DNA of 64,000 nt from Geosiphon pyriformis (taxonomy: Eukaryota; Glomeromycota; Glomeromycetes; Archaeosporales; Geosiphonaceae). This document shows positions 11,861 to 62,288 of the stretch, one piece after another. The position numbers and the translations under genes were made by a program. Each line of letters begins with the position of its first letter. The stretch's first letter is position 1. The stretch is taken from positions 1,316,054 through 1,380,053 of the forward strand of contig JAAOMT010000602.1 of the NCBI GenBank assembly GCA_016748015.1. Direction: 5' to 3'. The notes beneath the pieces are model-generated. The model was not told the DNA's origin, did not search any database, and was given only the letters and a program-made list of their open reading frames with translations.

Positions 11861-14800
11861 TTTAATTTTAATTAATAATTAATTGAAGTTGAATATATGT
11901 GATAAAATTAAAGAAGTAGATATTGATTTCAGAAAAAAAATTAAGGGTTCATTAAAATTTCTAAATCCTTAGTTACTATTCAAAATAAAAGAAGTGTTTC
12001 AAAATTGGTTAAGGAAAAGAGTAATCTTCCTCCCTCGTTTCATTCTCTTACTTTATATGAAAATTTATTGTATGATTAGCTGTATAATGCCACGAAGCTC
12101 GCACAACATATTTATAAGCCATTGTGAAATAACAATACAGTCATCTGGTCTTCTTAATTGTATTGTTTTTGTTGGCTACGCACATAATACAAAGTTATGG
12201 AAATGTTGTCATTGTTGAAGCTAGAGAATCAGGTAAAGATAATGGATATTTGACAAAGTATGATAAATAATTTCATTATATTCATATCTTATATAAGCAA
12301 ATCATTTACCTATAATTTTTTTTTATATTCAGTAGGTTTGTATGACTTTTGATCCTCCCCCTCTCGCTCCCGAAAATAGCTAAAAAATCTAATTAACTAG
12401 GTAACTTTTAATTTTTCATTTTCAACTAGTTTGCTAAAATTCAATAGAGAGATTATTTAAAATTTTTCTCCAGACAAGACCTCTTTATTAATATTAAAAT
12501 TCGTAATTAATGATTATAATAGAAAAAATCTAGTTTTGCTTTTTTTTCCTGGAAGTTTGAAACCCTAAGAAGGGATTTTGTTTTACCAAATTTTAGATGT
12601 GATTTCCTTGATATAAAAATTTGAAAAGGTTAATAATTCGATTTCTTGATAAAGTTGAGGATAGCGTTCAAAAACGTCAAGATACGATTTCATTGAGATT
12701 TTTTCATCCCCACCCATCTTTGTCTACAACTTTCCTGATTTAATTTATAGAAACAATACAAAAAAAACTTATCTTGACAATATTAAAATACCGTTTCTTT
12801 TTTTAGAAAGATTAGCAATTGAGTTCATTATAATTGACAAAGTGTCCTATTTTAGAACCTGTATAACAGCAACAATTAGATTGGAGCTCGGGTAATTTCT
12901 AGTGCTGATCAATGCGGAGAAACGAAAGTTCGGACATAATAGTTGTTAACATTGTTCGCCAAATTGACGTTAATCACTGGATTAGATAAGTGGTAGTTTT
13001 TATACAAAAAAACTTTTGATAATAAACACAATACATGTACTCCTAATTACCGAAAATATTGTTCCAATTTTCAAGGTTTAACATAGGAACTAGATGCTCA
13101 ATAAAACCCCACGTAATATTAACGATTACAATGGATGATATATTAAAAGGCTAAGATTATTTTTAGATTAATAGATTTCTAAGACGTCAAGTTAAATTAT
13201 CCCACTATTCTTATTTTATTCAACAATAAAAAAATTGAGTTTTAAATTAATCCAACACTTTAATTTTTTCAAATGTAAATTCATACTTTGTATATATCAA
13301 ACTCTTTCTATTGAAAATATACGTTCTTTTACTAATAGAACAAAATAAATTTTACTTCCAATAGTCCTAATTCAATGCAAGTCTTATATCTAATTCGCAT
13401 CTTAAAACAAATAAAGGAAAATTTATAAAAGCCTCATGATCAATGCACAGGATATTTTTTTTTGTGTAAAATTTTTCAGAATTTTTGAGTTCATAGCAAC
13501 ATAAATAAATGATTTACAAAATTAATTGTAATATATATCTGTTGTATGAGAGATTAAATCATCTTAATCTCACCATTATCTTTCTTTTAATCATACAAAA
13601 TTTTTTTTACATAGTTATCAACTTTAATTGGGTTTTTTTTATTTGTAAACATAATTTTTGGATAATGATTTTTCCCTTTGATTAAATTTATTTGAATGAA
13701 AAGAAAATTAATTCTAAAAAATTTTAATTGAAAGTTGAATTGAAATCAAAATAATAATTAAAATTAAAATAGGCTTTAAACAAAAATGTCTTTGATAATT
13801 TGAGATATTAATCGACATTTTGAAGATAAAACTGAGTATTTGTAACAATTATTATAATTTACAACTTGAATTTTACGTTGCTGACTATTTAAATATACTT
13901 TAAACATCACAAAGTTAGCTTACAATATCATTAGCATTCAATTTTTAATAAACTGAGCCTAACATAAAAAATAAAACTTTCAAAAAAAGTGTCCAATCAT
14001 CAAAAATTACCATTAACTAACTATTTTATTTTTCATTATTAAAAGTAAGAAAATTTGATGTCCTTAAAGATACTTTCAAGCCAAAACGTATTTATGGCTC
14101 TTGATTGAGATGATTGTCGCCAAAGAAAATTGGAAAATACTTTTTATGTAATAATATCACAGAGCTGTGCTGAAAATTAAAAGTGCAAATTCTTGACATA
14201 AATATTTTTGATATTCATGTACTGAGTAGTTTCCCGATTATTAAATTTATCATGAGCTATAGAATACACTAAAATCTACTGAAAAAAATTTACATTAAAT
14301 CTACATTCTAGCTGTGAATTTTCAAGAATTATGAGATTTCCAGAATCCATGGACTGCCTTTGTCAAGATATCGGAAAACAACAACCTAAAACCTCTCCCT
14401 ATGTGGGGTACAGCGTATAAATCTTCATGTAATTTCAGACTATTGTTGTCATTCGAGCTTCAAACATAAATATCATTTATTGCATTGGAGATTCGATTTT
14501 TATGTAGTCTGTAAATAAAAATATAAACAAAAAGCAAGGTAATTTCGGATTCAGTATGATAAACTATAGTATCTTTATTGTAAAAAATAATAAAAAGCTT
14601 AATGCATATCAATTTTTTTACTAAAAATCATTTTCAAAAAAAAAATTGCCCCGCTGAAACTTGTAATTTTTCAAAAACTAACATTTATTATCAATTTTGG
14701 ATTGATGTTTGGCTCCCAAGAGCTTTGTTAACGACAAAAATTTGAGGTATCTTTCAATGCAAGGATCTACTTTATAAAATTGTGAATGATCAACTTTTTA

Positions 14801-15299
14801 TTTTATTTTTTATTTTTTAAAATTTTAAAGCGGCATGCTTAGCTCAATCTAGATATTGTAAGCATGTCCTGTGTAAAAATCACGCAATATTCTTTAATAA
14901 AACTCATATTTACCTTTACTTCCACAAAGAACTGTTAAATATTGACAAAAGTTTCTTCTTTTACGTATTTCATCCATAGGATGTTCCAAGTCATGCAGAT
15001 TTTCATGGATTTACTTAACTTTTTGGTACTATCTCATCTCTAAACAACAGTTTTCATTCAAAAAAAACAGTTATAGTAAAAAAAATTAAGGCTAATGTCA
15101 AGAATGAAAACACAAAGAAATAGCATTTTCAAATTTTGAAATGGAAATTATATAAAATTATTGCACCAAGTGTCAACGATCTGTTGTTATGAAAATCAAT
15201 TACATAATTTTACCAATATTGATCATTTGATAAAAAGTGCCGAGGCAGTAAATCTCAGTGATCCTTAGAAATGAAAAAGATTTAGCACTAAAAATAAAA
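11861..15299. other. AT-rich intergenic desert
   Basis: About 3.4 kb with no supported gene. A 74-codon ORF at 11994-12218 lacks any features. No tandem repeat or structured element stands out beyond homopolymer runs. Confidence 0.55.
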
Positions 15300-15309
15300 A
15301 TATGCATTG

Positions 15310-16680
15310 CCAAGTAAGGTTACTATTTCCTTGCATGTATAGGCTTCATTTCGGATGACAACATGAACTTCTAGCTCCTCAGCCTTGGCGATCAGAAGTT
15401 GACAGAAACAGTAACATAACCAGTGAAGCATTTTTCAGACAGTATTTCGCGTCCTTTCTCTCGCCTTACAATTGTCATGTCTGCCACCTTAAACGACGAG
15501 GTGACAATTGCGTCAAACTCGTGAGTGAAAAACACGATTGTCTTTCACCCTGCAGACGCACAATTCTTCGTCGTAAACTTTGAAGTAGAGACAGCCAGTT
15601 CGAAATGAAGTGATTCATATACTTTACACAGGCAAAAAATTCATCTAATATCACCAAAGTCCATTTTAACACACTCCTTTAGAGTGGAACACCAATTGAA
15701 GACGCGAGCGCCAGAATTGCATAGATTGAGATGTACGCGGACTTTGTTTTGTGCCTCATAAACAAAGAAAACGTTCAATCGTTGGGTTTTCGAATTTTTC
15801 GTCAGATGTAATCTTGTGCGGATAGGGCTATTTCTGTGCTCAGTCTCGAAATAGAAAGGCTACAGTGCGCTTTTATCTTATTATAAAAAAGTTTTCTTTG
15901 AAATTTTTTTAAGCAACTACGTGCATAGGCATGCATTGACGAAGTGTCAAGGTACGAGACATAAAAACGATTCAAAAATGAAAATTTTGATAACGTACTG
16001 AAGCCCCTTTTCGTACTCATGAAGTATCCGAGTAATTTTGTCTCGCGCCGTCAGTGCGTGATCAATAACTTCAGCCATTTCTTTTTCATAATACTATTTT
16101 GCTTTATCACACAAAAGGTCTTTTTATTCCACCCTACTATGGTATTAAAGAAGAATCTCGCCAAGCCTATCCATTGCTCCAATAATTGCTTCTGAGGATG
16201 TTGGGATACACCTTGATCAAAGAATGCGGTTGAGAAGTTCTCGCAGGCATCGTCACGTGCTGCCGCCCTGGTTTTTATATTGAGCTTTTTGCTTGAGTTG
16301 GCGCTCTCTTCTGTATCTAGCTGCTCGCCGTTCTTCAATTCTGGAAGTGAAGACACACTGTTAATGACAAAGTTGAACTCTAAAAGTTCGTGCCCGTTAA
16401 AGGTTTCATCATCGAAAAAAGCGACGAATTTTGCAGAATGAAAGATGTATTAGAGGAGGTTCCAAGACAAGTGGCAGAAAACGACCGCAATCACTTATTA
16501 TAACTTCTGAGACCATTCTGCGACTTGTTTGTTCCAGTAGGTCATTAAGTTCCGGTCTTTTGACGTTGAAACTGGATCGATATCGTTGAGAAGTTTATAG
16601 GTTGGAAATTGAGAAAGAAGGACCCGCTTTTGTTGCCTGATATCTATTTTTGCTTGACACGAGAGACACGCGCGTAAAGG
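15310..16680 (-). pseudogene. Decayed Fanzor/TnpB-like RNA-guided nuclease
   Basis: Read 16680 to 15310 on the minus strand in shifting frames, this GC-richer block gives one protein-like trail. The order is: an N-terminal part with YWNKQVAEWSQKL; two stops; an SFCKIRRFF-type stretch; an acidic/polar segment; then QHPQKQLLEQWIGLARFFFN (about 16130-16190), which fits the Q..L..WIG..R..YN signature near the start of TnpB/Fanzor proteins. Next comes ALTARDKITRILHEYEKGLQ. About 15690-15720 reads NSGARVFNW where the RuvC-I motif has DPGxRxF, so the catalytic Asp is Asn, followed by DFGDIR-IFCLCKVYESL matching the family's GDI.RI.RLC..YD.L. Then SSFKVADMTIVRREKGREI matches the PSF..S.M segment. Finally KMLHWLCYCFCQLLIAKAEE and NEAYTCKE match KML.WSHYRFRQ.L...A and NE.YTSKTCG. 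Frameshifts and stops (near 16470, 16500, 16060, 15950, 15625, 15470) make it non-functional. The zinc-finger tail is not clearly preserved. Confidence 0.8.
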
Positions 16681-18300
16681 TAACAGCCGAGAAGATAGGG
16701 GAGAAGGTGGTGATTGTAGCAGTAATGGCTTTATTTTGTGAAATTAGCTCGAGAACGAGAGAAGATTATGGAGATGAATACATGGTAAGAGAGCAATTTT
16801 AGATAGCAAAAAGAAGGTAAAATTATTTATTGGCACGAGTTTGAACCTTACTAAGCAGCTTTATTATAAGAATTTACTAAGATTTTTCAGCGTAATTAAT
16901 TTATCACTTGACCAAAAACCTTTGCTCTTTTTTTTTAAGAACCTTTCAAACCAATCGATAGAAATAAAGCTCTTTTCCATTTTTTATATGTGAATTAAAT
17001 ACAAGATTCTTTAGAATTTTTTAACGATTCAAGTTTTCCAATCGTAACAATGTTTTGATTTTTAATTTCATGAGTTGAACCTAAAATTCTTGTATGCAAA
17101 TATCTAAGTTAAAAAAGTATATGATTTGCGTAAAAAATGTGCAAATTCAAAATCTAGCCACTTCAAATTCTTATTAATACCCCTTAAATTTTAGCGGACA
17201 AGCGTAAATATTTTGAATTTATTCTCTCAGAGTATTGTTGAGCATTCTGGGAATGCCAAATTATTTGTCCAACTACCCAGAGTACAAACTTGAATTAAAA
17301 TCTCTCGTATGATGTAGTGCTTGGCTCAAAATTTTCATTATTAGAAAATGTGCAATGCCATAAAAGCACTCTTTTTAAGATTTTTTTTTCTTTGTTACTT
17401 GTTTACAATTAAACTTCTTTGCAGAAGAAAATGCTTTCAAATGTGCTCTAGGCATAAAACGCCAATTTTGATTAATGATACTAGGAAAAGTTCAAAGGAG
17501 AGTTTCAGACATACAATCATGCAGGTCTAAAATTATCAAAACGTCAACAATTTTTGGGGTTGCCATTGATGGAAACTTATCACAATGGCTATAATTTATA
17601 ATAGCTTTATTCCTTAATTTTTAATATCAAGCTTGTTTTTTTTTTGGCTGAATTTTAAGACTATTTACTTTTCTTAACTTTCGGATGTGAGAAATTTGAA
17701 GGGACACTTTGCATTGCAAATTCTGATCCGGTTTCAAGTCATTGTTACTAGAGATAGAGAAATAGACTCTAGCATACTTAAAAGACAAACATGAGAATTC
17801 AAGCATTGTCATTTGACTATTTTTGGTGAAATAAATTGTATTAAATATGCAAACATTCGACACATGTCAAATATTTGATGTGCTTTGATTTAGTACCACA
17901 ATAAATTCTTAAGTAATTTTTTACGCCCAAAGAGTGAATTTAAAGTTTTTCCTCCTGGGATGAAAAACAATTTTTTTTTAGCTTCACATGAAGTTGAGAT
18001 ATTGAAAAGCAATCTTATTGGCTGATTAGTGTTTTAAAATTAGGATTTCCTATTTTTTCTGTTTTTTATTTTTGAACAGGAATGTATAGTAATATTATTG
18101 CCAAAAATCTCACGTTATTAACGGAAAGACAAACCAGGAAGCAAAAAAAAAACCAATCCTTGGAATCCTAATTCTTTTACCTGCATTACATCATCTAATA
18201 AAACTTTAAGGCTTAACGTTTCACAACGACCAAATAAAATTTCGGGGCTTGATACATTTAAGATTAAAATCTGTACTACAAGAGAGAAATTGACCAATAG
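16681..18300. other. AT-rich intergenic DNA
   Basis: No gene is supported. The first 100 bp continue the higher-GC block of the neighbouring relic, so its upstream limit may lie a little beyond 16680. ORFs at 17348-17530 and 17627-17863 have no recognisable features. Confidence 0.5.
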
Positions 18301-34683: not shown

Positions 34684-36047
34684 ATGCTACTCAATATTTC
34701 AATAATGCATTTTGAAAATATTTTCCAAAAACGATACGTCATTTTTTTTAATGTCTTTTGGTGTGCTATATTATCATTAAAAAATATTTTTTTTTCTCCA
34801 AATAAATTTGCAACTGATATTTCCACTTTTATTGTCGATAATAATTCAAATCAATTTAAGACACAAATTTATAATTTTTCCAAAAGGGCTACACTAATAC
34901 CTAATGTTTATCGGGTAACTAATTTATATAATTTACAATTTTTAGCTGAAATGGCTTACTACGCTCATCAGACTTATTGTTTACTTGAGGATACGGGTTT
35001 CGTGGAAGACGATATCTATGGTACATATGATTCTATTTAGCTTGCAGCCATTTTAAATTACTTTTTTTTGAAACTGAAATTTGTTGAAATTGAATTTAGT
35101 ATGGGTAAGTCCAGCTTCAAAAAAAATTACCTTGAGAAGTGGTGTTAAACGTGTAATTTTAATACAAGTAAGAGGACGAGAATTAACCTATGATAGAATG
35201 ATTGAATGGGATCAAACTCGGGATTTTAAGACTTTAAAAAGCGGGGGACTTAAATTTTGGGAAAATTTCAAAGTACCACTAGCATCCTATATAAGATATG
35301 AAAGAAAGTTGAAAAACAGAATATCAGATCTTCTTGAGAAATATGTGTCCAATAAATATTATAAAAATTACGGCTTCCTTTTTATAGGTCATGGTGAGGG
35401 TGGAGGTAGGGAAAGAGTTTTTGATATATTGATGCCTAATATAAATTCACTAATATCGAAAATTTATTTAAAAGCTCTAGCAACTTATGCTGCATTGGAC
35501 TTTTGGCAAAATATTCGTGGCAAAATTAAGTCATCCCAATTAGAAGTGATAACTTTTGGAGCCCCAAGGATTGGAGATGAAGGATTTGTCCGTTCAATTT
35601 CGAAAATTTTTAGAATCAATCGAGTAACTTATTCAAATGACTTTGTTCCATTATTTTTGAGTCATACATTTCGACACCCGAATACCGAATATTGGATAGG
35701 TGGTGAATTATGTGACTGCGATGTGTTAGCCAATCAACCTCAACCGTATCCTGTTATTTATGATTGTTATATGTATTCAGGAACTGAAAATCCTGTAAGT
35801 ATTGGTAAATTTTTTTTAAACTGGTTTAGATATGTTGAGTAATTCAAATTATTACTTTTAAATTTTTTAGTTTTGTAACTTGGCTTTTCAAAAACCCGCA
35901 TTAGAAGGGATGCTTGATCTCAGTTCTGAAATCTTTGGCTCCCATTTAGATGCACATAATGGACCTTATTTCGGGTATATAATGAAACAATGTCGTAGCA
36001 GATATGAAAAATATTTCTTTTTTTTTGATAATGATATTGATTTCTAA
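34684..36047 (+). CDS. Class-3 lipase-like protein, nucleophile Ser missing
   Basis: Three exons, 34684-35020, 35100-35794 and 35871-36047, give 402 residues with frames kept. Residues 8-37 hold a hydrophobic stretch fit for a signal peptide or anchor (the start could also be the second Met). The alpha/beta-hydrolase lipase-3 landmarks follow in order: an ILIQVRG strand in place of VAFRG (oxyanion region); LFIGHGEGGG at about 207-216 where the family has GHSxGG; VITFGAPRIGD; TYSNDFVP with the acid Asp (about 293); RHPNTEYW; then in exon 3 DAHNGPYFG with the catalytic His (about 373). Thus Asp and His remain but Ser is Gly (residue 211). The protein is either a secreted or endomembrane pseudo-lipase or an early pseudogene. 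No stops or frameshifts are seen, which supports the former. Confidence 0.82.
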
Positions 36048-37166: not shown

Positions 37167-38537
37167 TTAAACCCAAAATGAATCTAAAAGACCTTCACTT
37201 GTATCATTGTCTTCAAAATGAATATCGGGAAATAAACTATTTCTCAAATCAAAAGTTGTTTTATATGTCGGAAATGAAATGACATTAATATATTCAAGAG
37301 GAGTCGGAGTGATTGGAGTGATTGGAGATATTGGAGAAATTGGGATATGTGCAACTTTTTCAGATATTAAAAGTTCTTGAGATTCGAAGGGAAAACGAGT
37401 AGGCCTGTATTCGAAAATTTCAAGGGGATTTTTTGAAAACGAATCAGATTCTTGATTTGACAAATCAAGGGGAATTTCCGATTGACCAATATGAACTAAT
37501 GTAGAAGGTAGTGTAGAAATAAGAGGACCACTTCTATAATTTACAGCAGCAAATTTAATCTCACTTTGATATGGGTCATTGAGAGAGAGATTATCTTCGC
37601 TAGAAAAATCGGATTCTTCTTCTTTTAAAACAAGGTTCAAATTGTTTTGACTTTTTTGCCCAGTGAAAGGGATAAGACATTGAAACGGTTGATAATCTTT
37701 TGGAAAGGTTCTAGTTTCGCTTAATGACTTTTGATTTTTACATAAAGTCTGGAAAGCATCCGGTTTTAAATCTTGGACAGAAGAATAAGTAATCTCGAAT
37801 TGGGCATATGGCGAATTTGTCAGTGTTTGACCTAAATCACAAGAGGGTGTTGAAGAGGCTAAATGTTCTCGAGAAAAATTAGGATAAGGGTGGTTTGAAG
37901 ATGGTGTAACTTGCTTTTCAGAATTGTTTGATGATGAAAATGCTCTGATAAAAGTATCACAAAAAGGTTCTAGCTGAGATTTTTTAGCCTTCTTTGGGCC
38001 CTTAATAAATTTATAATCGGGGAATTGACGTTGATGCTCCCATTTTGCCTCTTTGTAAAGTTGTTTGAATGCATCCTTGACCTCTTTAGTACTCCTTCTC
38101 CAAGCTGTTTTAGCTAGCATTGAAACTTCTTGCGATTTGAAATGATGGTTTTCGAGTGAGTCATGAAACCATGTTCTAAATAACATAAAACTATTTGGTA
38201 AACGAACAGGTCTATTGGTAGATTTAACTCGTTTATGAAAGAAACGATTAACGATTTCGCAAAGTGTTGGAATTAAGAAGTAAGTGTTTTCACTGTGAGA
38301 CATTTCTAACATAACATAATTTCTTTCTCCAAAAGTTTTCAAATAAGCTTGGATTACTTTGTTTTGAGACTTTCTTTTTTTAAATTCATTTTTGAAACTA
38401 GCCGCGAGATCATTTGAAGTAGCAGCAGCATCAGAAGCATCAACATCAGCAGCATCAGCAGTAGCAGTGTTGTTGTTGTTGTTGTTGTTGTTGTATGGAT
38501 TGGAAACTATGTGAGTATGAATTCTTTTTAATGACAT
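37167..38537 (-). CDS. MATA-type HMG-box transcription factor
   Basis: A 456-residue single-exon ORF with a clear ATG. Residues 16-45 are low complexity: a poly-Asn run coded by AAC repeats, then Ala/Asp/Thr. Residues 83-107 hold the pre-box segment SENTYFLIPTLCEIVNRFF. The HMG box is at about 108-180: RPVRLPNSFMLFRTW (helix 1), SQEVSMLAKTAWRRS (helix 2, core Trp) and EVKDAFKQLYKEAKWEHQRQ (helix 3), then FPDYKFIKG and a basic patch KKAKK that suits nuclear entry. The C-terminal 270 residues are polar, with Ser, Thr and Pro and a PISPISPITPITPTP run that may be a phosphorylation target. MATA-HMG proteins are sequence-specific minor-groove binders related to fungal mating-type factors, but in mycorrhizal fungi most copies have no proven mating role. 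Confidence 0.9.
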   Translation of the reverse strand: MSLKRIHTHIVSNPYNNNNNNNNTATADAADVDASDAAATSNDLAASFKNEFKKRKSQNKVIQAYLKTFGERNYVMLEMSHSENTYFLIPTLCEIVNRFFHKRVKSTNRPVRLPNSFMLFRTWFHDSLENHHFKSQEVSMLAKTAWRRSTKEVKDAFKQLYKEAKWEHQRQFPDYKFIKGPKKAKKSQLEPFCDTFIRAFSSSNNSEKQVTPSSNHPYPNFSREHLASSTPSCDLGQTLTNSPYAQFEITYSSVQDLKPDAFQTLCKNQKSLSETRTFPKDYQPFQCLIPFTGQKSQNNLNLVLKEEESDFSSEDNLSLNDPYQSEIKFAAVNYRSGPLISTLPSTLVHIGQSEIPLDLSNQESDSFSKNPLEIFEYRPTRFPFESQELLISEKVAHIPISPISPITPITPTPLEYINVISFPTYKTTFDLRNSLFPDIHFEDNDTSEGLLDSFWV

Positions 38538-42802: not shown

Positions 42803-43978
42803 TCAAGTGTAATTACCAAAGATTAACCATGGATCAATGGGGCCAAATTGTTGTTTATTGTGATTCGTTTGTGAGGAAGATTGTTGAAAATGTAAATGCA
42901 AGTGAAAATTTTCATTTTGCATATAGATTTGTTGAGACTCTGATCTTGGGTAAATGAGGTCGAAAGTTTCTCTCTTAGGCTCCAAATGTGGTTGAATTTC
43001 AGGTGGTGGCATATTATATTGAATCAATCCGATAGGTATGCTGGTCATAGCTTGAACCTGAACGGCGGAGCTGTTTGAATCCCAATCCAACATTGGCTGC
43101 CCACCAAATGACTGGAGATACATTGAGGTTGTTGGAAAATTTGTGGGTACCGTTGAATGGACGGTGGCATATGATTTTTGGTTGCACAAATTGTGGTTGG
43201 TTAAAAATTGTCTCTGAATTGAGGATGTAGGCGTTTCATATTTTAATTGTGAGGCTAAGAGATTGGGGAATTCAATTTGATTTAAAGGCAAGTAAATTGG
43301 CGCGAAAGAAAAGTTGCCTGTTGAATAATGCTTTGTTGTTAGGCTTTTTCCAGCATGGCTGGGCACAGAAGATGACGAGTAGTTTTCAGTAACATGCACA
43401 AGCTGACCCGACGGAACTGATGTAGATGAATCGAGATCATCTGGAGAAATTTCGTGAGATGTTGAAATTTCCTTTGTGGGCTGATTTGTTCGGCTACGAT
43501 TTGGTTTATATACATACCCAGGATTGATTTCACTATGTTTCTCTTTAACTGTCTGAGCAAGTTTAGTAAAAACATCCCGGACTTCTGATGAGGCTTTTTT
43601 CCAAACCTGACTGGCTAAATTCGAGACGACAGGCACTTGTAGTCGGCGATGGTCAACAGCAGATTGTACACCGGCGCGTAAGATGAAAAACTTGTTTGGT
43701 GGCCTCGCCGGTTTCTCCGATGTTTTTGCTTTTCGGTAAAAATACTTTTCTTTGATTTCCTGTAGAGTCGGCACAAAGAAACGAACATGTGTTCCGTTAT
43801 CAAAATCGACTATTACACTTGGTCGGGCACTGGTCGGGTCAAGAGTTGCCTGTAAAACGTTACCGACTAAATCAAATGGTAACTCCATTCGTGAAGGTGA
43901 AGAGCAGTCATCACTGGGGTTTCTAATCACATTGTACGGACTTGCTCTTTTGTTTTCATTCTTAACAGAAACAGGCAT
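42803..43978 (-). CDS. MATA-type HMG-box transcription factor
   Basis: A 391-residue single-exon ORF. Residues 64-86 form a pre-box segment (THVRFFVPTLQEIKEKYFYR) alike in place and pattern to that of the HMG gene about 4.3 kb away on the same strand. The HMG box spans about 90-161: EKPARPPNKFFILRAGVQ (helix 1), VPVVSNLASQVWKKASSEVR (helix 2, core Trp) and DVFTKLAQTVKEKHSE (helix 3), then NPGYVYKPNRSR. The rest is rich in Ser, Thr, Gln and Asn with many Pro and Tyr, and likely disordered. It is nuclear and DNA-binding by family. The two boxes are diverged (shared residues mostly at core positions), so this is not a fresh duplicate. A GGTAAT near the 3' end could be a donor, so a short last exon is possible. 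Confidence 0.9.
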   Translation of the reverse strand: MPVSVKNENKRASPYNVIRNPSDDCSSPSRMELPFDLVGNVLQATLDPTSARPSVIVDFDNGTHVRFFVPTLQEIKEKYFYRKAKTSEKPARPPNKFFILRAGVQSAVDHRRLQVPVVSNLASQVWKKASSEVRDVFTKLAQTVKEKHSEINPGYVYKPNRSRTNQPTKEISTSHEISPDDLDSSTSVPSGQLVHVTENYSSSSVPSHAGKSLTTKHYSTGNFSFAPIYLPLNQIEFPNLLASQLKYETPTSSIQRQFLTNHNLCNQKSYATVHSTVPTNFPTTSMYLQSFGGQPMLDWDSNSSAVQVQAMTSIPIGLIQYNMPPPEIQPHLEPKRETFDLIYPRSESQQIYMQNENFHLHLHFQQSSSQTNHNKQQFGPIDPWLIFGNYT

Positions 43979-59835: not shown

Positions 59836-62288
59836 ATGGCCGTCAAATATTCAGGGACAGATATTGTGATGAACGGAATCAATGCGACGATACAAGTCGG
59901 AAAAATGATTCCTTTCGTTGCTGAAGCAGCCGCATTATGTGAAATGATTTTTAATATGGCCCAAACAGCGCTTCATAATAAAGCAGTATGTAAAGCGTTG
60001 GCAGCACGTGTTAAGAATAAACAAGATTGGTTAGTGCGAGAAAGCCCACCGGCCGAAAACTGTCGAAATACATATTTAACTTATATCGAAGTTTTGAAAG
60101 AAATTCGAGATTATATAAAAGAATTGAAAGATCCGGGACCATTTACATCTAGATTTATACTAAAAGTTAAAAGAACCCTTGGTGCGAACGATGTGAGTAG
60201 AAAAGCTTTTTCAATTTTAAATCTAATCTAGACTGTTCCCCCAATATTTTTAAAGAAATTATTTATCTGCTCTTTCCTTAATAGGTTGCTGCAATGCATG
60301 CAGATTTAGAAGAGAGACTTGATAAAGCCCAAAAAGATTTCCATTTAGATTTGTCCTATGATACCAACAGTGTAGTCAAGGATGCCAACGGTATAGGCAA
60401 GGATACTAACAGTAGGCTCAGGGATGCTGACAAAAAGTTGGATGAATTGTTGGAAAGAGAGAGGAAACGTGACGAAAATCAGGTTGCTCTCGCAATGTAT
60501 AACAAGGGTGTTGAACCATCCGCAAACGACATAAAGGCGACAAAACTTGACTTTAGCCATTTTGAAGACGAAGACGACGAAGAGGATTCAGTTACTCGCG
60601 GTAAAATCGAAAAGAAAATGTATCACATGCAAATAGTGGCTTTGAAAAAAATTGGAAATTTAAAACAAATACCTAAAGCACAGCTTGCTCGTATTGATAA
60701 AGAAGCTGTTTTATTTTCGAGATTATCTGATTGTACGAAGATTGAAAAATTGTATGTGGTTTAACTTTTTTACATTCTTTTGTTAACATTCGATCATAAA
60801 ATTTGACTCAGTATAACTTCGGATTTTCAACCATTGATTTAGCTATGGTACTACCATAAATGCTGATATTTTGTATATCGCCACCGAATGGGCTGAGCAT
60901 GGAGATCTTGAAAAGTATTTAAGAGCTAATCCTAACCTTGAATGGAAGCACAAAATCAAATTCGCTGAAGATATTGCCATTGCTCTTGCCTGGTGTCATT
61001 CTGTTGAAATTTTTCATCATGATGTCAGAAGGTAAATTCTTAATTGCTCCTTCTTTTCTAATAATCTTATGATTTAGAAACTGACCTTTTTTATCTCGAT
61101 ATAGTCACTCTGTTTTAATCGATGAAAATCTCACTGCAAAATTAACCAACTTTCAAATGAGCCGTTTCGGTACAGACGCTACTACTTCCATAACGAATAT
61201 GACCGCGAACTCAAGGTAAAGAAATATTTTCTAACTTTTAAATTTTTTATTAGTTAATACTTTAACTTGTGATTATTTTGACCAGATGGACTGCGCCTGA
61301 AAAACTCCAAGCAAATATTCCTTACAGTAAAAAGATGGATGTGTATAGTTTTGGTATCGTAATGTGGGAGATTTCTGCTCAAGATAAACCTTTTGGCGAA
61401 ATTATTAATGACATGGAAGTTATGACAGTTGTATCAAAAAATATACGACCACAGCCTATCCCCGAAGATACTCCAGAGGGCTATAAACTCCTAATGAAAC
61501 AAGCTTGGCATGAAAAGCCCAATAAAAGGCCAGCAATGGAATTTTTGTCAAAAGAATTACATCGTGTTGGACAAAAATATAGGAAGTATTCATCAACTTC
61601 ATCAATTTCATCAATGTCGGATAGCATTAGTACTCTCGATGTACCATCTATTGCGCAAAGACCAGGTACTCCTTTGCCAGAAATTGAAGGACAGGAATAT
61701 GGATTTCAATCATCAGATGATCTCGGTATCGACTTGTCTGATTTAATAATCACTGATTTACCTAGTTGGGAAGACGTTTATCAAATGATAAAAGATAAGA
61801 GTATCAAGAAAGCTTTCCCCTATATTGAGGAACACGCAAAACAAGGTAATGCTGTAGCCCAATATTACGCCGGTAGGTATCTTTACGAAGGTCAGTATGT
61901 TGAGCGTGACGAAGATCAAGCTTTGGCGTATCTTTGTCAAGCAGCTGACACACCAGTTCAATACGGTCAGCGTACACCCGCACATATTTCATATGCGCAG
62001 TTTACCTATGCACATGGGTGCCTTAAAGGAAGCAGTTATGACCAAACAGCGGGAATTGAATACTTGAAGAAAGCGGTTCGTAATGGGCAACCGCAGGCAT
62101 TGCTCTTTTATGGTGAGATTCTTTTAGATGGTCTATACGGTCAACCTATCAGATTAGATGAAGCTGAAAAAATGTTGAAGGCATATAAACGAATGAATCC
62201 GCAAGAACTTGAAACCGAAAGTGGCAAGAAAAAATTCGAAAAGATTGTTTACAAATTACAAATATACAAAAAGCAAGCTGGATCTTAA
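59836..62288 (+). CDS. MLKL-like protein: helical N-domain, pseudokinase, Sel1 repeats
   Basis: Five exons, 59836-60192, 60285-60751, 60843-61031, 61105-61215 and 61286-62288, give 708 residues with all frames kept. Residues 1-165 are a helical bundle whose start (GMSN-free, AVKYSGTDIVMNGINATIQV) resembles the MLKL/HeLo-like N-terminal domain found in plant, animal and fungal cell-death proteins. Residues 165-195 are a charged helix (brace). Residues 205-480 are kinase-like: VALKK (Lys about 240) is kept, but the Gly-loop is absent, HRD reads HHD (333-335), the metal Asn is Ser (340) and DFG reads NFQ (353-355). RWTAPEKL, DVYSFGIVMWEI and RP near the end are typical tyrosine-kinase-like (TKL) features. 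A Ser-rich linker (about 485-510) leads to Sel1 repeats (about 570-690), such as GNAVAQYYAGRYLYEGQYV and KAVRNGQPQALLFYGEILLD. Pseudokinase scaffolding or a death-executioner role is inferred from architecture alone. Confidence 0.9.

Follow-up and report, generated by a model that had tools for sequence, protein, structure and literature searches.

The relic described here is, with a probability that we put at about 93%, the decayed remains of one copy of a Geosiphon pyriformis (Archaeosporales, Glomeromycotina) transposon of the IS607 type, carrying a serine recombinase together with a Fanzor2 nuclease. It lies on the minus strand of the window, by which we mean the whole 64,000-nucleotide stretch of DNA that was analysed (C300:1316054-1380053), and its parts follow one another in the order left-end remnant, tnpA, a Fanzor2/TnpB gene overlapping tnpA in another frame, and right-end motif. 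Elements of this kind are already known; the Geosiphon relic adds a member, and many such remains are present in the same fungus. The features are as follows, with their basis in brackets.

about 15291..16856, minus: whole IS607-type Fanzor2 transposon relic, left end at the high coordinate (paralogue DNA homology and end motifs)
16825..16856, minus: left-end remnant, family motif GCTTAGTA..GGTTCAAACTCGTGACAATAAAT (motif also found at the left ends of other copies)
16330..16682, minus: tnpA relic, catalytic domain of an IS607 serine recombinase in broken frames, the 16330 end being estimated (tblastn with the L070 frame)
16487..16576, minus: dual-frame stretch, TnpA frame SSFNVKRPELNDLLEQTSRRMVSEVIISDC (translation; PYW motif in bacterial DNA)
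15327..16353, minus: core part of the Fanzor2/TnpB relic, with several frameshifts and stops (translation, tblastn, protein match, alignment)
16132..16203, minus: OrfB-type N-terminal helix-turn-helix QHPQKQLLEQWIGLARFFFNTIVG (homology to L021, which runs on into PF07282)
15698..15718, minus: RuvC-I position, NSGARVF (NSG against DPG in relatives)
15476..15499, minus: former RuvC-II position, SSFKVADM (alignment with relatives)
15327..15350, minus: NEAYTCKE, alternative RuvC-II Glu (Ealt) kept, zinc ribbon after it missing (alignment)
15291..15326, minus: right-end motif, family form CTTACTTAGCAATGCYTAGTACTACC (26 of 36 positions agree)
15291..16980, minus: gene model G9A89_010422 (P0001, 269 aa, hypothetical protein), assembled from the relic (public annotation)

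Identity of the relic and its two genes

The original prediction had placed a relic of a eukaryotic Fanzor at 15310-16680. Three-frame translation recovers the quoted motifs from the minus strand; their frames are broken, and they follow the order known from TnpB/Fanzor proteins. The Fanzor reading was right but incomplete: the relic is that of an IS607 Fanzor2 element, whose first 350 bp, overlooked at the time, are a serine-recombinase transposase. The extent also had to be corrected to about 15291-16856, where family end motifs were located at both ends of the relic, as the prediction had thought might be feasible.

To identify paralogues, we searched the same genome (124.7 Mb, 406 contigs) with the DNA of 15200-16850 and obtained 57 other stretches at E <= 1e-3, several of them per copy. 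The best of these, C330:125298-126701, is 65% identical over query positions 183-1521 (1.34 kb; E 2.6e-74), and the best alignment of the relic with a paralogue, L021, runs from 16909 to 15307. A tblastn search with paralogue open frames against the 64 kb window returned the relic with L021 (E 8.7e-13 at 16566-16132), with L006 (E 1.3e-9 at 15461-15330), with L031 (E 5.9e-8), and with L027 (E 2.5e-4) over the RuvC-I part; the open frame of L034 did not match the relic in this search. At six places (C330, C346, C377, C355, C360 and C117), a match to PF07282, the TnpB/Fanzor zinc ribbon, and relic DNA occur in one copy. These linked copies, along with the match of P0001 to P0039, a metagenome protein with PF07282 (40% identity; E 7e-11, calculated for 120 proteins), support the eukaryotic Fanzor relic first proposed. 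The Fanzor frame of L006 matches PF07282 (E 9.4e-14) and the solved TnpB-like structure L79 (9b0l, E 3.9e-11). The joined window pieces alone had no PDB match even at E 10, and P0001 had no NCBIfam match; the identification therefore rests on the paralogues and on P0039. The genome profile search (E <= 1e-3) likewise placed no PF07282 match in the window, and PF12323 on P0001 (E 0.024) is below the cut-off.

Within the nuclease part, LLEQWIGLARFFFN is located inside 16203-16132 and KMLHWLCYCFCQLLIAKAEE..NEAYTCKE spans 15434-15327, both on the minus strand. The replacement of the catalytic Asp of RuvC-I by Asn, as originally read, is borne out by the alignment: DPG is found in 14 of 14 relatives (chosen from the best 120) against NSG in the window, and it is retained in Geosiphon copies L002 and L033. 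At the SSFKVADM position the relatives mostly read IIPPFE.. or IIPEFN.., without the canonical Glu, and at Ealt most of them read [NSD]E[AVS]YTSKTC, against NEAYTCKE in the window. DPG at RuvC-I, together with a Glu placed six residues ahead of the first zinc-ribbon Cys, has been used to define the Fanzor clade, and Fanzor2 proteins are tied mostly to IS607 (both in the available text of PMC10711439). From these motifs, the relic nuclease can be assigned to the Fanzor2 type. As for an omega-RNA, which had been expected to be perhaps detectable, Rfam gave no match in 14500-17500; eight right ends were aligned for this purpose as well, and the conserved end seen there proves nothing because the eight had been chosen by the end-motif pattern.

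In the transposase part, the active-site motif YARVS is retained in YLYARVSRVKQK at 16682-16647 (minus). Among three genome matches to PF00239 (serine resolvase), the one on C200 lies inside the first part of an element copy (L070). The longest frame piece of this copy matches the window at 16623-16487 (tblastn, E 2.5e-7) and 10 of the 20 fetched loci at E <= 1e-3, with E-values calculated for this small set. Read with X at stops, the C200 TnpA frame matches the IS607 transposase model NF033518 at E 2.5e-17 and PF00239 at E 9e-10, and the C310 frame does so at E 3.8e-23 and E 1.2e-7; the C310 frame also matches solved IS607-family TnpA domains (6dgc, E 6.6e-13; 3ilx, E 3e-10). The window TnpA piece reaches only E 0.075 against NF033518.

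IS607 TnpA proteins usually begin with a DNA-binding domain of the MerR family (available text of PMC4058570). In Geosiphon, 29 of the 30 NF033518 matches leave out the first 48 model positions. Five of the 29 begin at 49-54 and extend back to where the catalytic domain begins; the other 24 begin at position 82 or later and, being shorter fragments, say little. The distance from the left-end motif to the active-site stretch is 69-138 bp in six copies (two of them weakly placed, 27/44) and 149 bp in the window, whereas in the cyanobacterial IS607 elements compared, the active site of TnpA is preceded by at least 45 aa at 62 of 64 loci. The winged-helix motif was detected by regular expression in 24 of these 64 loci, and the one TnpA that was scored covers NF033518 positions 2-41. 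It seems from these lengths that the TnpA of the Geosiphon family is without the N-terminal winged helix of IS607 transposases: either this family lost the domain, or its ends were bound in another way. The sole Geosiphon match that includes the winged-helix part (model positions 3-165) is at C328:97862-98338 and contains six stops.

Copies, ends and decay in the Geosiphon genome

Matches to tnpA, zinc ribbon, helix-turn-helix, relic DNA and end motifs were pooled into places, which gave at least 135 distinct places in the genome with at least one match to element parts, counting the window and both Geosiphon families described here; most of them have only one kind of match. PF07282 accounts for 67 genome matches at E <= 1e-3. 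NF033518 was found at 30 places, two of which are one duplicated sequence, and these 30 matches and two family-copy fragments all fall below the full-length cut-off of 110 bits. Another listed match lies within 2.5 kb on the same strand at 10 of the 30 places (0.1 expected at random), of which only 8 show a second part, because at C168 and C318 the neighbouring match is the tnpA stretch itself; the remaining 20 are without another listed part within this distance. No open frame covering a full gene was found in the copies examined, the longest family frame among the 20 loci fetched being 195 aa, and the intact paralogues that had been suggested as a search target in this genome are absent from the copies examined.

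Two further arrangements were observed. L041:599-2828 and L042:3750-5915 belong to a second, younger Fanzor family (82.8% identity between the two copies, 2.2 kb), the nearest relatives of which are a metagenome protein and chytrid proteins; of tnpA there is no more than a trace, at the start, and a T/A-run stands at the right end. In L029 (C342:176000-184000), two Fanzor copies with identical scores lie 2129 bp apart, a local tandem duplication.

At the left end of the element, GGTTCAAAATCGTGACAATAAATA is preceded by a tandem array with as many as three units of about CTTAGTAATGCYTATCAATAAAACTA, and the right end has one ACTTAGCAATGC, with CTTACTTAGCAATGCYTAGTACTACC standing after the zinc ribbon in the family. 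In the window, the left-end motif at 16848-16825 has one mismatch (0 expected in 100 shuffles), and the 15-mer core of the right-end motif at 15318-15304 also has one (0.10 expected). Apart from short pieces, homology among 21 sequences ends at about 1.7 kb. Genome-wide, each of three end-motif patterns matched 9 times and, when reversed, not at all, and 12 of the 24 end-motif places have another listed part within 2.5 kb while the other 12 have none. In the oriented loci, the end motifs were found 53 times and the reversed motifs never; part of this count arises by construction because some loci had been fetched with the same patterns. A sensitive blastn of long flanks for the boundaries returned mostly AT-rich noise (53-58%) and was set aside.

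IS607 elements are described as having no inverted repeats, no target duplication and short direct repeats near their ends, although the same source also speaks of an imperfect inverted repeat there (available text of PMC6188088). In our copies, neither inspection by eye nor a blastn comparison of flanks (16 left, 9 right; E 1e-3) revealed terminal inverted repeats; the single inverted match is taken to come from a neighbouring copy in reverse orientation. The ends do carry short direct repeats, as the IS607 type requires; their direct or inverted orientation is partly ambiguous because the end motif is a near palindrome.

The right-end motif stands directly after NEAYTCKE, so the zinc ribbon and the RuvC-III Asp are gone. 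Because of this loss, the Asn in place of the RuvC-I Asp and the broken frames, the window copy is dead. It is 67-72% identical to 18 paralogues, and the median pairwise identity of copies is 73.5% (152 pairs), values from which the copies would represent an old burst. Measured against the majority base of the 18 other copies, C to T changes occur in the window at 13 of 60 CpG and 63 of 269 other sites, and G to A changes at 15 of 61 CpG and 39 of 208 other sites, against 34 of 395 for A to G and 23 of 334 for T to C. GC-to-AT transitions are thus about threefold more frequent than the reverse, and CpG-specific decay was rejected, the window counts having no preference for CpG sites. The Arg-to-Cys changes originally read as CGT to TGT are real in comparison with the paralogues (AHYRFRQ in L031), but the decay behind them is not specific to CpG. 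Overall, the Geosiphon elements are what remains of an old, multiplied and perhaps extinct IS607/Fanzor2 invasion.

With 35% and 38% GC per kb, the block is richer in GC than its surroundings, as had been pointed out, but it is not unique in the window, where the 1 kb segments at 43-44 kb (41%) and at 31-32 kb and 60-62 kb (36-37%) are GC-rich as well. Elsewhere in the window, the ORFs at 37167-38537 and 42803-43978 (minus) have HMG-box matches (E 1.9e-7 and 7e-4, the latter below the cut-off), and there are a kinase and Sel1-repeat ORF at 61269-62288 (plus) and a class 3 lipase ORF at 35081-35842 (plus), families that are typically expanded in such fungi. The segment 5001-6000 has a GC content of 5.4%, far under the rest of the window, and its 293-codon open frame is probably mere AT-rich sequence.

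The overlap of tnpA and tnpB

The genes of IS607 elements often overlap (available text of PMC6188088 and PMC9956272). In the window, the DNA that reads SSFNVKRPELNDLLEQTSRRMVSEVIISDC in the TnpA frame reads RNLMTYWNKQVAEWSQKL in the Fanzor frame (16554-16501, minus); with CTA-CTG codons, the same DNA gives ELNDLLEQTSRRMVSEV (TnpA) and LMTYWNKQVAEWSQKL (Fanzor). By this reading, the relic retains a dual-frame signature.

Bacterial relatives (79 loci kept of 342) and viral loci were examined for the same arrangement. A viral scan with P0015 produced no match; a scan with the alignment produced 56 loci, of which 22 (L151-L172) were used. Among the resulting 101 bacterial and viral loci (L072-L172), 69 gave a TnpB open frame. 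The TnpA motif pattern was present in 24 distinct sequences from bacteria or viral contigs; the second frame at its Leu/Ile-Leu reads PYW in 23 and TFW in one. In 23 of 24 sequences the first codon has A at its third position, where codon use in the same frames would predict 2.1, and all 24 have CTG or TTG as the second codon (3.9 expected); these expectations are not significance levels because 11 of the 24 sequences are from Moorena and 4 from Anabaenopsis. TnpA stands near the TnpB open frame in 38 of 69 loci, and the open frames overlap in 35 of these 38, by more than 500 bp in 23 (start codons not being fixed). Together, these counts make the tnpA/tnpB overlap of the bacterial relatives look dual-coding.

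A PYW-like motif is found in 51 of 58 bacterial or viral TnpB frames with at least 200 residues before RuvC-I, in 41 of them with SWFS too. Among the best 120 database matches, 66 of 119 proteins have at least 200 residues before the nuclease signature; 36 of these have a PYW-like motif (15 with SWFS as well) and 30 do not. The alternate-frame PYW motif is seen in proteins of a chytrid and of Diversispora as well, and a strict pattern for the alternate-frame YW/HW motif is present in 5 of 21 Geosiphon sequences, including the window. The position in the second frame was seen in the DNA of bacteria and Geosiphon, and for chytrids and Diversispora it is deduced from the protein motif.

We give roughly even odds to a broader proposal: from cyanobacteria to chytrids and fungi of the arbuscular-mycorrhizal type, an N-terminal extension of Fanzor2/TnpB would be encoded in a second frame within tnpA, with both frames under selection and the two genes thereby inseparable by simple mutation; the TnpA of the fungal branch would have lost its DNA-binding domain, and the Geosiphon relics would be fossils of this arrangement. 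No statement on dual coding was found in the available parts of PMC10711439, PMC3627910 and PMC4058570 or in literature listings. One metagenome protein, P0111 (555 aa), joins resolvase, HTH_OrfB, OrfB and zinc-ribbon domains in a single polypeptide, and is either a TnpA-TnpB fusion or a frameshifted overlap.

Relatives, alternative readings and meaning

A tree of 189 sequences was built with FastTree and rooted at the midpoint; 67 of the bacterial and viral loci entered it. The Geosiphon family groups with metagenome proteins P0028, P0031 and P0039 (support 0.994), followed by Diversispora P0006 and P0018 with P0015 and P0024 (0.984). The 26-member clade around them (0.929) also includes the second Geosiphon family and chytrid proteins, and the bacterial loci, cyanobacterial ones included, lie outside it. 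The fine placement is uncertain because the tips from Geosiphon are short fragments and the proteins had been gathered by searching with the second Geosiphon family. On this tree, the nearest relatives would be metagenome proteins of unknown host, followed by Diversispora proteins, rather than cyanobacterial ones.

The nearest named relatives, Glove_40g20 (P0018) and Glove_688g24 (P0006) of Diversispora epigaea, are from Glomeromycotina too. P0006 carries the N-extension PYWN..NSWFS. These proteins, compared here at the protein level, are annotated as full-length, whereas the Geosiphon copies examined are broken. The Fanzor2 elements of IS607 type described by Bao & Jurka 2013 (PMC3627910) are alike in having a serine recombinase and a TnpB-like protein, no inverted repeats and a eukaryotic host, and they share the DPG/Ealt clade with the Geosiphon family (PMC10711439); in comparison, Geosiphon has many decayed places in one genome and a TnpA apparently without winged helix. 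The cyanobacterial IS607 'pro-Fanzors' (PMC10711439) share the gene order, the tnpA/tnpB overlap and the alternate-frame PYW/SWFS motifs, and bacterial relatives in general show 37-51% identity to P0039, which heads the query alignment. The term 'Glom' is absent from the main text of the Fanzor2 survey (PMC3627910). Within the literature listings available, Fanzor with Glomeromycotina gave no hit and Fanzor with Rhizophagus gave only a review on gene transfer in plants.

Several other readings of the relic were weighed. Fanzor1 proteins of Spizellomyces and Mucorales are fungal RNA-guided nucleases of the same superfamily (PMC3627910), and there is a slim chance that the relic is a Fanzor1 carried by a eukaryotic cut-and-paste transposon such as MuDR, as reported for Rhizopus, Phycomyces and Mucor, rather than by an IS607 element: Mucoromycotina Fanzor1 elements with MuDR-type ends have been published (PMC3627910), and the Geosiphon genome has 18 MULE-domain matches. 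However, Fanzor1 elements belong to other transposon types, with inverted repeats and no serine recombinase (PMC3627910), while the transposase of our copies is an IS607 serine recombinase, the compared copies showed no terminal inverted repeats, and the tree sets the copies among TnpB/Fanzor2 relatives; this reading was dropped once the serine recombinase had been found. Slightly slimmer is the chance that the element was recently acquired from Nostoc, the cyanobacterium living inside Geosiphon as an endosymbiont. Nostoc loci do occur among the bacterial relatives, and Fanzor-like IS607 TnpBs are mostly cyanobacterial (PMC10711439), but the copies are old by their median identity and the tree, with its short partial sequences, midpoint root and second-family query set, gives an endosymbiont origin no support, placing them with metagenome and Diversispora proteins apart from the cyanobacterial loci.

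That G9A89_010422 is an expressed host gene, derived from the element and serving a new role, is just as improbable as endosymbiont transfer. A model of 269 aa does exist in the public annotation, but its predicted introns skip stops and frame changes, the locus is as diverged from the 18 paralogues as stated above, and the catalytic residues are lost; a search of the relic read-through against 5.8 billion proteins returned only this gene model itself, yet that search was word-limited and missed P0039 too. As to chance likeness of AT-rich fungal DNA to Fanzor motifs, the broken frames and the failure of profile searches with the window alone would agree with it, but its probability is negligible in view of the DNA match at E 2.6e-74 to a paralogue that runs into PF07282 and the match at E 7e-11 to P0039.

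Under the preferred reading of an IS607-type Fanzor2 element, and by analogy with known families, TnpA of a live element would excise it as a circle and then reinsert the circle at a short core sequence, for IS607 a GG dinucleotide, without target duplication; an RNA from the right end would guide Fanzor2 to cut the emptied donor site, the repair of which would restore the element. Excision and insertion by TnpA have been demonstrated for IS607 in published work. Observed here are the homology of both genes, direct-repeat ends, multicopy spread and the death of the window copy, which does nothing now.

The public gene model G9A89_010422 is a transposon fossil, and its annotation is thereby corrected. 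The relic and its paralogues record an IS607/Fanzor2 invasion in a relative of arbuscular mycorrhizal fungi. PYW..SWFS in the second frame offers a simple signature for decayed copies that profile searches miss, and the dual-coded overlap, if confirmed, would explain why the RNA-guided nucleases of this clade have stayed tied to their transposase.
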